From Actinomycetota bacterium (GTDB lineage Bacteria; Actinomycetota; Actinomycetes; Mycobacteriales; Micromonosporaceae), in NCBI GenBank assembly GCA_005885115.1, contig VAXX01000507.1, forward strand, positions 1 through 6,492: DNA of 6,492 nt, given 5' to 3'. Position numbers and translations under genes: made by a program. Shown here piece after piece: positions 956-6,492 of this stretch; the first letter of the stretch is position 1; each line of letters starts with the position of its first letter. The notes beneath the pieces were generated by a model. It did not search any database, had not been told where the DNA came from, and saw only the letters and a program-made list of their open reading frames with translations.

Positions 956-1882
956 TTACGCCGTCGGGTCGAGGACGATCTTGCCGAGGGTGTGCCTGCG
1001 CTCCAGCTCCCGGTACGCCGCCCGGACCTCGGTGAGCGGGTACACCCGGGCGATCGGGACCTCGATCGCGCCCTTGTCGACGAGCGCGGCCAGTTCGGCC
1101 AGGGTGTCCGCGCCGGCGCCGGCCGCGTTGCCGTCGGACTTGACGCCGTACTTCGCCGCCGCCGCGAAGTCGATGATGGTGTCGATCCGGTCCCGCTCGA
1201 CCCCGAGGTCGAGGGCGAGCTCGACGTACCCGCTGCCGTACGTGTCGATGAACGCGTCGACCCGACCACCGGAGGTCTCCCGGATCCGCTCGGCGACCCC
1301 GGTGCCGTAGCTGGCCGGGAGTACGCCGTGCCCGGCGAGCCAGCCATGGTGCGTCGCGCCGGCCAGACCGATCACGGTGGCATCCGCAAGCCGGGCCAGC
1401 TGTACCGCGATCGACCCGACCCCGCCGGCCGCCCCGGACACCACGAGGGTGTCGCCGGCGGTGAGCGAGACGGCGCGGACGGCGGCGTACGCGGTCGAAC
1501 CGGCGACGTGCAGCGAACCGGCCACCGCCCAGGGCACGCCACCGGGCCGGTGGACCAGGTGCTCCGGCTGGACCAGGACGTACTCGGCCTGGCTGGCCCG
1601 CTCGTCGGTGTAGCCGATCACCTCGTCCCCGACCGCGAAACCGGTCACTCCGGCACCGAGTCGCGCGACGACTCCCGCCAGGTCGCTGCCCTGCCCGGAT
1701 GGGAACGTCGCCGGCCACCGCTTGGCGTACACCCCCGTGCGGATCGCCACCTCGCCCGGGTTGATCGACGCCGCCCGGACCTGTACCAGCACCTGTCCCG
1801 GGCCGGGCTCCGGCCGGGCCACGTCCGCGACGTACAAGACGTCGATGTCCCCGTACCCGTCGAACCTGACCGCCTTCGGCAT
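956..1882 (-). CDS. MDR-family NAD(P)-dependent oxidoreductase (quinone/enoyl reductase type, zinc-free)
   Basis: A complete 308-residue medium-chain dehydrogenase/reductase. The N-terminal GroES-like domain covers about 1-120, with the conserved Asn in AASINPGEVAIRTG (around 41) and the SDLAGVVARLGAGVTGFAVGD segment (66-86). The Rossmann cofactor domain follows, with the nucleotide-binding loop SGAAGGVGSIAVQLARLA at 149-166. The C-terminus ends in the family-typical ELERRHTLGKIVL. The cysteines and histidines that bind zinc in alcohol dehydrogenases are absent, so this is the quinone-oxidoreductase/enone-reductase branch, which normally moves hydride from NADPH to an activated alkene or quinone. 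The substrate cannot be read from the sequence. The ATG at 1882 has a good ribosome site (AGAAGGGGG, about six bases upstream). It is divergent from the response regulator gene and may share a transcript with the 23-codon ORF upstream. Confidence 0.9.
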   Translation of the reverse strand: MPKAVRFDGYGDIDVLYVADVARPEPGPGQVLVQVRAASINPGEVAIRTGVYAKRWPATFPSGQGSDLAGVVARLGAGVTGFAVGDEVIGYTDERASQAEYVLVQPEHLVHRPGGVPWAVAGSLHVAGSTAYAAVRAVSLTAGDTLVVSGAAGGVGSIAVQLARLADATVIGLAGATHHGWLAGHGVLPASYGTGVAERIRETSGGRVDAFIDTYGSGYVELALDLGVERDRIDTIIDFAAAAKYGVKSDGNAAGAGADTLAELAALVDKGAIEVPIARVYPLTEVRAAYRELERRHTLGKIVLDPTA

Positions 1883-2074: not shown

Positions 2075-2746
2075 GTGGGTCAACCGGACGGCTCGCAGGC
2101 GATCGCGGTCTTCCTGGTGGACGACCACGCCGTGGTACGCCGCGGGATGCGCGCGTTCTTCGAGATGCTGCCCGACATCGAGATCCGGGGTGAGGCCTCG
2201 GACGGGCGGTCGGCGCTGGACCAGCTCGCCGTCATGGCGGCCCACGACGAGCTGCCCGACGTGGTGCTCATGGACCTGCTGATGCCCCGGCTCGACGGGA
2301 TCGCCACGACGAAGGCGATCAAGCAGCAGTACCCGAGCGTCGAGGTGGTGGCCCTCACCAGCTTCAGTGAGGCCGAGCGGGTACACGGGGCGCTGGAGGC
2401 CGGCGCCGCCGGCTACCTCCTCAAGGACGCCGAGGCCGAGCAGGTGGTAGCGGCGGTCCGGGCGGCCTACCGGGGTCAGGTGCACCTCGACCCCGTGGTG
2501 GCCCGCAAGCTCACCCGGTCGCTGGTCGCCCCGCAGCGTACCGCGACGGCGCTGACCAACCGCGAGCGCGAGATCCTGGTGCTCGTCGCCCAGGGCCGGT
2601 CCAACCGCGACATCGCGAAGGCGCTGGTGATCAGCGAACGCACCGCCCGTACCCATGTCAGCAACGTGCTGGCCAAGCTCGGGCTGGCCTCGCGTACCCA
2701 GGCCGCGCTGTGGGCCGTACGCGAGGGCCTCGTCCCCGGCGCGTGA
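2075..2746 (+). CDS. NarL/LiaR-type two-component response regulator (receiver + LuxR HTH)
   Basis: A 223-residue DNA-binding response regulator. The receiver domain covers about 10-130: acidic pocket D16-D17 (VFLVDDHAVVRRG), phospho-acceptor D67 in VVLMDLLMPRLDG, T95 in VALTSFSE and K117 in YLLKDA, so all switch residues are intact. The LuxR-type helix-turn-helix covers about 158-218 (LTNREREILVLVAQGRSNRDI, then SERTARTHVSNVLAKLGL), all typical. Overall it resembles the LiaR/VraR/DesR branch, whose members usually answer envelope or membrane stress, but the signal here is unknown. The open frame reaches back to GTG 2024. I prefer GTG 2075 because homologues begin just before the receiver core and because of the -10-like element next to it. 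No histidine kinase gene lies on either side, so it is an orphan within this window. It is divergent from the oxidoreductase gene. Confidence 0.92.
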   Translation: MGQPDGSQAIAVFLVDDHAVVRRGMRAFFEMLPDIEIRGEASDGRSALDQLAVMAAHDELPDVVLMDLLMPRLDGIATTKAIKQQYPSVEVVALTSFSEAERVHGALEAGAAGYLLKDAEAEQVVAAVRAAYRGQVHLDPVVARKLTRSLVAPQRTATALTNREREILVLVAQGRSNRDIAKALVISERTARTHVSNVLAKLGLASRTQAALWAVREGLVPGA

Positions 2747-2872: not shown

Positions 2873-3259
2873 GTGCGCGACGACGACCACGACCAACCGC
2901 TCCGCATCCTGATCGTCGAGGACGATCCCCGGGTGCGGACCGCCCTGCGGGCCTTCCTGTCCGAGGGCGGATTCGAGGTCGTGGGCGACGCCGCCACCGC
3001 CGCCGCCGCACTGCGGATGGCCCGCGAGCGCGCTCCGGCCGTGGTACTCGTCGACGTGCTCACCGCCCACGGACCGGACGGCATCGAGCTGCTCCGGGCG
3101 CTCACCGAGTTGCGGATCCCCGCCGTCGCGATCAGCATCCACGGCGGGGTACGGGGTGACGCGCTCGCCGCCGGTGCGTACTCCTTTCTGGACAAGGACA
3201 GCGCGCCGGAACTGCTCGTCGCGACGCTGCGGGAGGCGGCGGCCCACGCGTGCCGGTGA
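2873..3259 (+). CDS. Stand-alone receiver-domain response regulator
   Basis: A 128-residue single-domain response regulator with no output domain. The receiver runs from about residue 10 (LRILIVEDDPRVR, acidic residues E16-D17-D18) to the end, with phospho-acceptor D61 in VVLVDVLTAHGPDG, S88 in VAISIHGG in the Thr/Ser switch position, and K108 in FLDKDS. The loop after D61 is one residue longer than usual and lacks the conserved Met/Leu-Pro pair; D61 to the loop Gly is nine residues instead of the usual eight. GTG 2873 is the start, with GGGGAG six bases upstream. It lies 126 bases behind the LuxR-type regulator on the same strand, so co-transcription is possible. Single-domain receivers act in phosphorelays or by protein-protein contact; partner unknown. 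No cognate kinase is visible. Confidence 0.88.
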   Translation: MRDDDHDQPLRILIVEDDPRVRTALRAFLSEGGFEVVGDAATAAAALRMARERAPAVVLVDVLTAHGPDGIELLRALTELRIPAVAISIHGGVRGDALAAGAYSFLDKDSAPELLVATLREAAAHACR

Positions 3260-3630: not shown

Positions 3631-4437
3631 GTGAGAACCCAGGACAGCGGCCGGCCTCTGGCCGGACCTTCCGAGGACACCGCGCAGGCCACCCGGGCGG
3701 TGGTGGACAAGGCGTTCACCGTGCTCGAGGCCTGGCGCCGGCGCGACGAGGTACTGGGCGTCTCCGAGCTGGCCCGCCGTACCGGCCTGCCCAAGTCGAC
3801 CAGCCACCGGCTGCTCGGCCTGCTCGAGGCGGCCGGCGTCGTGGAGCGCGGCGCGGCCGGCCACCGGCTCGGCGACCGGCTGCACGGATTCTCCGCGCTG
3901 CTGTCCGCCGACAGCCCACCCGAGCTGCGCGAGGTGAGCCTGCCGTACCTCCAGGACCTCTACGAACTCACCCACGAGACGATCCACCTCGCGGTACTCG
4001 ACGGCGTCGACGTGCACTGCGTGGAGAAGCTGTACGGCCACCGCCGCTCGCCGCTGCGCTCGCGTGTCGGCGGGCTGCTGCCCGCCCACTCCACCGCGCT
4101 GGGCAAGGCGTTGCTGGCGTACTCGGACCCGGCGACCCAGCGCCGGGCGCTCACCAGGATCCTCGACGGGTACACCACGGCAACGGTCACCCAGCCCTCG
4201 CGCCTGGCCGCCGAGTTGCGTACCACCCGGCTGCGCGGGCTCGCCTTCGACCGCCGGGAAACCCATCCGGAGGTCATGTGCGTGGCGGCGCCGATCCTGG
4301 ACCACCAGGGCCGGGTGGTGGCGGCGATCTCGATCAGCGGTACCCAGCACCGGTTCGATCCGGCCGCCGTGGCCGAGCCCCTGCGCCGTACCGCGCGGGC
4401 CGCCTCGGTCGCGCTCGCCGGCCCTCGCGCCGCCTAG
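3631..4437 (+). CDS. IclR-family transcriptional regulator
   Basis: A complete 268-residue IclR-type regulator. The winged helix-turn-helix covers about 24-87 (VVDKAFTVLEAW, then LGVSELARRTGLPKSTSHRL with recognition helix near 54-65). The effector-binding domain covers about 95-265. Conserved family stretches include HETIHLAVLDG (115-125), LPAHSTALGKALLAY (150-164) and the late AAPILDHQGRVVAAISISG. Such proteins bind as dimers or tetramers and respond to small carboxylic, aromatic or other metabolites; the ligand here is unknown. The GTG at 3631 has no own Shine-Dalgarno sequence and directly follows the TAG of the 45-residue gene, so it likely relies on coupled translation. It converges on the thioesterase-P450 gene and so could be a cluster-border regulator, which is inference. 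The repeats at 3403-3467 are candidate autoregulatory sites. Confidence 0.93.
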   Translation: MRTQDSGRPLAGPSEDTAQATRAVVDKAFTVLEAWRRRDEVLGVSELARRTGLPKSTSHRLLGLLEAAGVVERGAAGHRLGDRLHGFSALLSADSPPELREVSLPYLQDLYELTHETIHLAVLDGVDVHCVEKLYGHRRSPLRSRVGGLLPAHSTALGKALLAYSDPATQRRALTRILDGYTTATVTQPSRLAAELRTTRLRGLAFDRRETHPEVMCVAAPILDHQGRVVAAISISGTQHRFDPAAVAEPLRRTARAASVALAGPRAA

Positions 4438-4496: not shown

Positions 4497-6492
4497 CTAA
4501 GCGGTCCGCACGTGCAGGGAGGTCAGGCCCCGCAGCACCGGATCGTCCCGGAACGCCGGCGGTACGGCCCCGCCGTCGACCCGCAGCGTCGGGAAGCGCC
4601 GGGCCAGGGTCTGGAACAGGACCTGGCCCTCGATCCGGGCCAGCGCCGCACCGATACAGAAGTGGATCCCGAAGCCGAAACTGAGCTGCCCGTTGGGTTT
4701 GCGGGACACGTCCAGCCGCTCCCCGTCCGGGAACCGGGCCGGGTCCCGGTTGGCCGCCCCGATCACCGGGTACAGCAGCTGGCCCTTTTTGATCAGTTGT
4801 CCGCCGATCTCGACGTCCTCGTCGGCGAGCTGCGGCGTCAGGATCGGGGTCGGGCCGTCGTAGCGCAGCAGTTCTTCGGCGGCGTACTCGGCCAGCGCCG
4901 GGTTGTCGCGCAGCAGCTCAAACTGGTCAGGGTTGCGCAGCAGCGCGTACGTGCCGTTGCCGAGGTAGTTGGCGGTGGTCTCCAGACCGGCGTTGAGCAG
5001 CGCCATGCAGTTGAGGATCAGCTCCTCGTCGGTCAGGGCGCCGTCCGGGCCGCCATCCGTGGCGATGAGCGCGGACAGCAGGTCCTCGCGCGGTTCCCGG
5101 CGGCGCTGCGCGATCAGCCCGGTGAGGTACGTGGTGAACTCCTGCATCGCCGCGTGTGCGGCGCGGGCGATGACGGGTGCGTCCGCCGCGTACTGGGCGC
5201 CGAGCAGGGCCATCAACTGCTGTGCCAGGTACGTCATCCGGGGGTGGTCGGCCGCCGGTACCCCGATGAACTCCATGACCACGGCCGCCGGCAGCGGGTA
5301 GGCGACCTGCGAGATCAGCTCGCCACCGCCGGCCGCCTCGATCCCGTCGAGAAGCTCATCGGTGATCTGCTGGATGCGGGGCCGCATCGCCTCCACCGTG
5401 CGTGGCGTGAACGCCTTGCTGACCAGCTTGCGCAGCCGGGTGTGGTACGGCGGGTTGGTGAAGGGCAGCATCTCCCCGAGCATCCGCTCGAACTCGCTCA
5501 TCTCCTCCCGGTCGGCCTGCGGAACCGAGGCGAACAGGTAGTCGGTGACCGGCGGGCGTACGACGCCGTGGTGGCGCAGCAGTTGGGACACCTCCTCGTA
5601 CCGGGTGAACACCCAGCCGCCGAGGCTGTCCTCGTAGTGGATCGGCGCGGTCTCCCGCAGCGCCCGGTAGAACGGGAACGGGTCGTTGATGAACGCCGGG
5701 TCGAGCGGGTTGAACGCGATCGTCGTCGCCACCGAACCCTGCCGCTGCGGGGCGGCACCGGTGAGCGTGTTGGCGCTGTGCCGCTCCTCCTCGGCCAGGC
5801 AGCGGTGTACCGCCGAGGCCAGCAACTCGTCGTTGGGCTCGACGAACATGGTGAAGTGGTCGCCCGGGATCGGTACCACCTCCAGCTCGCCGAGGTCCAC
5901 GTACTCCCAGCCGTTGGCCGGGGCGTCGAGCTTGAGCGCGGTGTTGCGGTCCGGCTCCATCACCGGCGGGAACCCGCCGGTCGCCTTGATCAGGGTGACC
6001 CGCAGGTCCGACGGCGGCGGCTGGTACTTCACGTTCGCCTCGATGTTGGCCTGGTACACCCGCAGCATGTTGCTGATGTGCTCCTCGACCGGCAGCGAAC
6101 CGTTGGCGCCGAGGAAGCGGCCCAGCCGCTCCTTCTGTTCGGAGATCGCCAGCGACGGGTCGATCTCCACCCCGGCCGGCCCGCCCGAGGCGAAGGCGAG
6201 CCGGTTCATCGTCATCAGCTCCCGGATCGCCGCGGCGTCGTCGACCGGCGGCAGCGGCTGGTCCGGAACCGGTACGTAGGTGTCCAGCAGCACGACCCGG
6301 GTCACCTCCTCGCCCGCCTGGCGGAGCTGCCGGCCCATCTCGTACGCCACGACACCGCCGAACGAATGGCCGCCCAGCAGGTACGGGCCGTACGGCTGGA
6401 GCAGCCGGACGGACTCGATGTACCGCGCCGCGAGTTCCTCGACGGTGTCCAACGGCTCCTCGGCGCCGTCGTAGCCCGGCGCCCGTACCCCG
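4497..6492 (-). CDS. Thioesterase-cytochrome P450 fusion, C-terminal part of an NRPS/PKS-type protein (5' end off the edge)
   Basis: The minus-strand frame is open to the window edge; 664 residues are visible, starting GVRAPGYDGAEEPLDTVEEL. Residues 1-235 are a type I thioesterase (alpha/beta hydrolase): nucleophile S43 in GGHSFGG, D70 in VVLLDTY and H212 in PGDHFTMF, a full triad. About 70 N-terminal thioesterase residues are missing, so whatever precedes it is unseen. A short linker (about 236-254, ERHSANTLTGAAPQRQGS) leads to a complete bacterial P450 (about 255-664): I-helix NAGLETT (500-506, acid-alcohol pair present), ExxR at 540-543 (ELLR) and heme loop FGFGIHFCIG with ligand C612. Thioesterases of this type release or cyclise carrier-bound peptides or polyketides; the P450 would hydroxylate or otherwise oxidise the product using external ferredoxin, since no reductase domain is present. 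TTG 6452 is internal to the thioesterase fold and not the start. Confidence 0.92.
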   Translation of the reverse strand, partial: GVRAPGYDGAEEPLDTVEELAARYIESVRLLQPYGPYLLGGHSFGGVVAYEMGRQLRQAGEEVTRVVLLDTYVPVPDQPLPPVDDAAAIRELMTMNRLAFASGGPAGVEIDPSLAISEQKERLGRFLGANGSLPVEEHISNMLRVYQANIEANVKYQPPPSDLRVTLIKATGGFPPVMEPDRNTALKLDAPANGWEYVDLGELEVVPIPGDHFTMFVEPNDELLASAVHRCLAEEERHSANTLTGAAPQRQGSVATTIAFNPLDPAFINDPFPFYRALRETAPIHYEDSLGGWVFTRYEEVSQLLRHHGVVRPPVTDYLFASVPQADREEMSEFERMLGEMLPFTNPPYHTRLRKLVSKAFTPRTVEAMRPRIQQITDELLDGIEAAGGGELISQVAYPLPAAVVMEFIGVPAADHPRMTYLAQQLMALLGAQYAADAPVIARAAHAAMQEFTTYLTGLIAQRRREPREDLLSALIATDGGPDGALTDEELILNCMALLNAGLETTANYLGNGTYALLRNPDQFELLRDNPALAEYAAEELLRYDGPTPILTPQLADEDVEIGGQLIKKGQLLYPVIGAANRDPARFPDGERLDVSRKPNGQLSFGFGIHFCIGAALARIEGQVLFQTLARRFPTLRVDGGAVPPAFRDDPVLRGLTSLHVRTA

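Follow-up and report, generated by a model that had tools for sequence, protein, structure and literature searches.

The window analysed here, a 6,492-base stretch that constitutes the whole of contig C370 in a metagenome-assembled genome (MAG) of the Micromonosporaceae (607 contigs, 77.7% complete), encodes a genuine didomain in which a thioesterase (TE) and a cytochrome P450 (P450) are joined in one reading frame. Judging from its sequence and from those of its relatives, this didomain is probably, though far from certainly, the C-terminal end of a multidomain enzyme on which a polyunsaturated fatty acid (PUFA) would be carried by an acyl carrier protein (ACP), oxidised there and then released. 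The individual domains are known, but together they form a variant of PUFA-synthase-linked specialised-lipid machinery for which we found no description in the literature searched.

The frame extends on the minus strand for 664 aa, from 6491 to a stop codon at 4497-4499, and is open on its 5' side. These residues are only the C-terminal part of the gene product, since the TE is truncated by the contig end, and the 5' part of the gene is missing because the window is an entire contig of a fragmented MAG. Both domains scored well above their Pfam cut-offs (Thioesterase, PF00975: 87.5 bits versus 26.4, covering profile positions 33-218 of 226; p450, PF00067: 98 bits versus 22.8), and the residues that the original prediction had named could all be located: in the TE, Ser43 within GHSFGG (6363-6365), Asp70 (6282-6284) and His212 (5856-5858); in the P450, the I-helix motif AGLETT (4974-4991), the ExxR motif ELLR (4863-4874) and the heme-binding loop FGFGIHFC with Cys612 (4656-4658). 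The full triad and the PF00975 match bear out an assembly-line type of TE, and the solved chains nearest to it by sequence are 4zxh, NocB, Pks13 and fatty acid synthase (FAS). The intervening linker is Ser/Thr/Gln-rich and free of stop codons, as had been claimed, but is a little longer than the 20 or so residues first proposed (about residues 232-257); its pLDDT in the structure prediction is mostly 50-63, falling below 50 at residues 246-251.

The same open fusion is present in named isolates, which rules out a MAG artefact, chance or a local read error. A scan of genome contigs recovered nearly the whole fragment, in uninterrupted frames, from Micromonospora sp. CB01531 (G242; 78% identity), a member of the same family as the MAG, and from Lentzea sp. 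NBRC 105346 (75% identity), whose called genes encode 1370 and 1531 aa, respectively; the Lentzea strain has three loci with the fusion. Protein searches contributed 42 further proteins, including, among the matches listed, those of Lentzea tibetensis, Amycolatopsis xylanica and Kutzneria. We aligned 45 sequences, picked as fused from the 120 of 261 and 120 of 775 matches that were listed, plus the window and CB01531, and left out P0014 and P0016 (whose frames end inside the P450), P0015 (partial), P0133 (lacking a TE) and the fragments P0124-P0126. Ser43, Asp70 and His212 of the TE are invariant in all 45, as are Thr505, the ExxR residues Glu540 and Arg543, and Cys612 of the P450, with Glu504 retained in 44. 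While these catalytic residues do not vary, the linkers differ in length and make-up, being Ser/Thr/Ala-rich in one group, Pro-rich in a second and different again in a pair of proteins fused to a fatty-acyl-AMP ligase (FAAL). The possibility, raised with the original prediction, that homologues always encode the two domains as separate genes is contradicted by these fused proteins, none of which, having been chosen as fused, has a stop in the linker. The fusion is nonetheless rare, occurring in 2 of 354 genomes of the window's family, 2 of 397 in a sample of the order and 10 of 390 in the Lentzea family. The tree does not single out one origin of the fusion, in that one fusion plus one split costs the same as two fusions (four of the 86 input rows, all Lentzea P450s, dropped out).

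Complete relatives share a domain order of PUFA-isomerase-like flavodomain, ACP, TE and P450, preceded by an Ohr peroxidase, by a heme domain resembling allene oxide synthase (AOS) or by neither (2, 12 and 25 of 39, respectively, among the matches listed). In CB01531 and Lentzea the TE follows the ACP, and in all 38 fused relatives that are complete or nearly so (P0001-P0013 and P0017-P0041) the flavodomain and ACP come before the TE; no condensation, adenylation or ketosynthase domain appears in the Pfam lists of these 38, again among the matches listed. The flavodomain of CB01531 aligns end to end with the Propionibacterium acnes PUFA isomerase (E 4e-37; positions 5-422 with 2b9w), the enzyme to which the available text of PMC6162330 also assigns 2BAB, and its N-terminus is an Ohr peroxidase by TIGR03561, above cut-off. 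In Lentzea, the N-terminal domain (predicted fold, pLDDT 92.6) is matched best, in fold and in sequence, by coral AOS (E 2.6e-27), ahead of true catalases. We rejected its assignment as an ordinary catalase, since the six chains listed at E <=1 include no catalase, the sole catalase-kin match among them being a catalase-related 33-kDa protein (E 0.26). The distal His and Asn are kept in 18 of 18 AOS-like domains, and the proximal R..Y in 17, with one gap. We infer that the missing 5' part of the window's own gene has the upstream domains in the same order.

Among 13 related loci, a FAAL gene lies directly upstream on the same strand in all but one (L144), overlapping the fused gene by four bases in six, and a PUFA-synthase-like set (KS-AT-ACP-KR, KS-CLF-AT-FabA and a PfaD-like protein) lies beside five, four of which have an Ohr or AOS-like domain. 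This set is on the same strand as the fused gene in CB01531, Lentzea C32, G827 and G836 and divergent in Lentzea C2 (L143/L188), where its identity to that of CB01531 is 67.6% for the PfaD-like protein, 65% for the KS part and 59-60% for the FabA part. In the window MAG, contig C49 carries KS, FabA and FAAL genes with 65-81% identity to CB01531 and ends inside the FAAL gene; it may join either C370 or C355, a contig with a second fused copy.

Under the mechanism that we propose, FAAL would charge the ACP with a free polyunsaturated acid, which at some loci would be supplied by the neighbouring genes; the flavodomain would move double bonds into conjugation, as in the P. acnes isomerase; the AOS-like or Ohr domain would consume an acyl hydroperoxide; the P450, on its flexible linker, would oxidise the ACP-bound chain, as P450BioI does; and the TE would hydrolyse or cyclise the chain off the ACP. 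Since these steps would place P450 oxidation on the ACP-bound chain, oxidation most likely precedes release, a sequence suggested by the domain set and by analogy with P450BioI. The original prediction had envisaged oxidation of an acyl-enzyme intermediate: such an event on the acyl-TE is possible, but we favour the acyl-ACP as the P450 substrate. More tentatively, and with distinctly less than even confidence, we propose a bacterial oxylipin assembly line, in which a PUFA synthase would feed a FAAL and, through it, one ACP-centred megaenzyme whose AOS-like heme domain or Ohr, isomerase and P450 rework the tethered chain before TE release. If so, fatty acids that corals, plants and animals modify in free form would here be modified while covalently attached, oxidation being an integral step ahead of release, and bacteria would possess an assembly line for signalling-type (oxylipin-type) lipids.

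Several other arrangements could account for the fusion. Release by the TE might come first, after which the tethered P450 would oxidise the freed fatty acid, with channelling as the sole role of the fusion; we regard this as unlikely, for although the linear order of TE then P450, the flexible linker and the use of free substrates by many CYP107 P450s (in the available text of PMC10741444) all suit it, complexes of P450BioI with acyl-ACP are among the closest folds, and the enzyme's other domains are arranged on either side of a single ACP. In fold comparisons, the closest P450s were CYP107P2, P450BioI and CalO2, with P450BioI chains ranking first to third by Z (46.4-46.5, at 35% identity) in a VIA-align comparison that covered residues 254-664; P450BioI (CYP107H1) itself acts on ACP-linked fatty acids, according to the same available text (PMC10741444). 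This ranking, along with several separate relatives (~46% identity) that a source names pimeloyl-ACP synthase, would also suit a P450 that cleaves the ACP-bound chain in the manner of P450BioI, leaving the TE to free a shortened acid instead of an oxygenated polyene. However, P450BioI is tied with CalO2 (45.9) and CYP107P2 is best by sequence, and the neighbourhoods of the related loci contain no pointers to biotin or dicarboxylic acids, and we consider such cleavage improbable. Because of the same tie and the CYP107P2 match, the substrate cannot be read from the fold of the P450.

It is very improbable that an internal start or linker cleavage yields the two domains as separate proteins and leaves the fusion without functional meaning. 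Linker sequences are not conserved, and separate P450s are on record: P0130 and P0131 (~65% identity), a near-identical stand-alone protein of 407 aa (P0123) and a 431-aa protein (P0126) that GenBank lists for the P450 of CB01531. Yet the frame is open in every one of the 45 sequences chosen as fused, across three linker types, and that of CB01531 runs through in the DNA although the GenBank record splits it. To the remaining alternative, the release end of an ordinary line of nonribosomal peptide synthetases (NRPS) or polyketide synthases (PKS) with an attached P450, we give scarcely any credence. The TE resembles NRPS, PKS and FAS thioesterases by sequence, and NRPS-type genes occur within 20 kb of six of the 13 loci (a C-A-T-TE gene at L144; at each of the five G893-G897 loci, an adenylation gene, which includes a carrier domain in its complete copies), for which reason a peptide partner is possible at these six. 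Nevertheless, the upstream domains listed for the 38 relatives lead us to reject a terminal NRPS/PKS module in them, and, with FAAL adjoining in 12 loci and the PUFA set in five, the NRPS/PKS module that the original prediction had placed upstream is not borne out.

The preferred reading, in which oxidation would take place on the carrier, has several observations counting against it besides the separately recorded P450s, the nearby NRPS-type genes and the ties of P450BioI. Three proteins, P0054 (Nocardia), P0055 (Streptomyces) and P0058 (Amycolatopsis), consist of AOS-like domain, isomerase-like domain, ACP and TE and end there, which means that some relatives can do without the P450. In eight of the 13 loci, the sequence read does not contain a complete PUFA-synthase set. 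The window fragment itself has no upstream domains, the ACP before the TE being cut off; C49 may go with C355, which has the second, broken copy, and not with C370; and a flavodomain was looked for in the MAG, at its 77.7% completeness, and not found. The predicted model (pTM 0.70) does not fix the placement of the TE relative to the P450. Finally, a Thr before the distal His is important in catalase-related AOS. Where coral 1u5u has this Thr, 14 of the 18 domains have Phe and 4 have Leu, and we therefore call the domain AOS-like rather than AOS.

Elsewhere in the window (Table 1), the IclR-type gene has a 64.5% identical counterpart on a Lentzea contig that carries the fused enzyme, and the LuxR-type regulator is 85-88% identical to genes beside the fused enzyme in Lentzea, G827 and G836. 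Both are likely part of the same cluster as the fused gene, and because of these counterparts at related loci, the window most likely sits in the same kind of cluster as its relatives. Within its own family (a 121-genome sample), the LuxR-type regulator reaches 80% in the one genome of the same genus and otherwise <=63%, and this greater closeness to another family suggests, by sequence comparison, that the cluster moved between families. No link to the fused gene was seen for the sigma-70-family and zinc-binding-dehydrogenase-like genes.

Table 1. Features of the window, and of P450-like genes at related loci
Feature	Position	Strand	Basis
TE domain, residues 1-239, N-terminal part cut off by contig end	5775..6491	-	PF00975
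TE-P450 linker, about residues 232-257, Ser/Thr/Ala/Gln-rich	5721..5798	-	open frame
Cytochrome P450 domain, about residues 257-664	4500..5723	-	PF00067
Stop codon of fused frame	4497..4499	-	frame reading
IclR-type regulator gene	3631..4437	+	PF01614/PF09339
Small response-regulator receiver gene	2873..3259	+	PF00072
LuxR-type response regulator gene	2075..2746	+	PF00072 + PF00196
Sigma-70-family factor (r2 + r4) and zinc-binding-dehydrogenase-like gene	194-817 and 956-1882	-	Pfam, opposite contig end
P450-like gene (226-232 aa)	L160 6586-7284; L161 11932-12615; L162 12799-13491; L163 12054-12746; L164 7659-8339

The proposed scheme calls for a hydroperoxide, and a lipoxygenase may be its source, which we treat as a lead only. 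A lipoxygenase gene (PF00305) is present in 7 of 12 genomes with the fusion (G827, G836 and G893-G897) versus 17 of 390 genomes of the Lentzea family (P 8e-9 by Fisher's test, which takes no account of kinship, and 6e-4 if the five genomes G893-G897 are collapsed into a single one), and is absent from 14 control genomes. None was detected in CB01531, Lentzea NBRC 105346 or the incomplete window MAG, and it never lies beside the fused gene.

Some further arrangements came to light at or around the fusion. The second fused copy in the window MAG (L040, G000:C355, 1025-3199) has an open linker and is missing two stretches of ~30 residues, one with the TE Ser, each with a frame change; it is either a pseudogene or an assembly fault. 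Only in Lentzea does a gene resembling FAD-dependent oxidoreductases and Trp-halogenases (L043, 4268-5578, minus strand) lie between the FabA-type subunit and FAAL. At all five G893-G897 loci, the fused gene is followed after ~9 bases by a gene for a P450-like protein of 226-232 aa that has neither the I-helix acid-Thr motif nor the heme-Cys loop and, in the one tested, no Pfam match; it is possibly a heme-less P450 helper. P0043 was rejected as a TE-P450 fusion, as its sequence reads P450-A-T-TE, with the P450 at the N-terminus and hence the same partners in reverse order, and P0045, which groups with it in the tree and has a similar Pfam list, was dropped. In P0046-P0050 (1457-1527 aa), Pfam lists show a P450 joined to an adenylate-cyclase/ATPase/TPR signalling protein.

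In the usual view, on-line chemistry ends with release, and P450s are stand-alone enzymes that act afterwards. The conserved TE-P450 terminus, which follows isomerase-like and AOS-like or Ohr domains, makes the action of a P450 in cis on ACP-bound fatty acids testable, and suggests that culturable actinobacteria, including Lentzea, Micromonospora CB01531, Kutzneria and Amycolatopsis, make a class of oxygenated polyunsaturated lipids that is still unexplored. The original prediction named no well-characterised TE-P450 didomain as a precedent, and we likewise found none described in the open-access literature searched, so that its surprise at the fusion is warranted.

Its parts nevertheless resemble known systems. 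PUFA-synthase-like enzymes for 'secondary lipids' (PMC3098273, PMC13291983, in their available text) employ the same kinds of genes as those beside five of the 13 loci and on C49, to which the isomerase-like-ACP-TE-P450 protein is an addition; the main text of the former contains neither 'thioesterase' nor 'P450' nor 'amino oxidase', and the available text of the latter does not mention 'cytochrome'. In P. acnes, the PUFA (linoleate) isomerase PAI works on linoleic acid as a free-standing monomer (PMC2885616, available text), whereas its counterpart here is one domain of a carrier-protein enzyme. Coral AOS (1u5u, 3dy5) is fused to an 8R-lipoxygenase, while the AOS-like domain of the relatives, which is absent from the window fragment, is fused to isomerase, ACP and TE. 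P450BioI, the closest P450 in fold by Z, is a separate protein that cleaves C7-C8, in contrast to the P450 here, which is fused behind ACP and TE. Proteins in which FAAL is itself fused (P0042; P0044, Luteibacter) share the ACP-TE-P450 order in one chain at ~35% identity but lack the isomerase domain, and their P450s fall outside the main clade on long branches.
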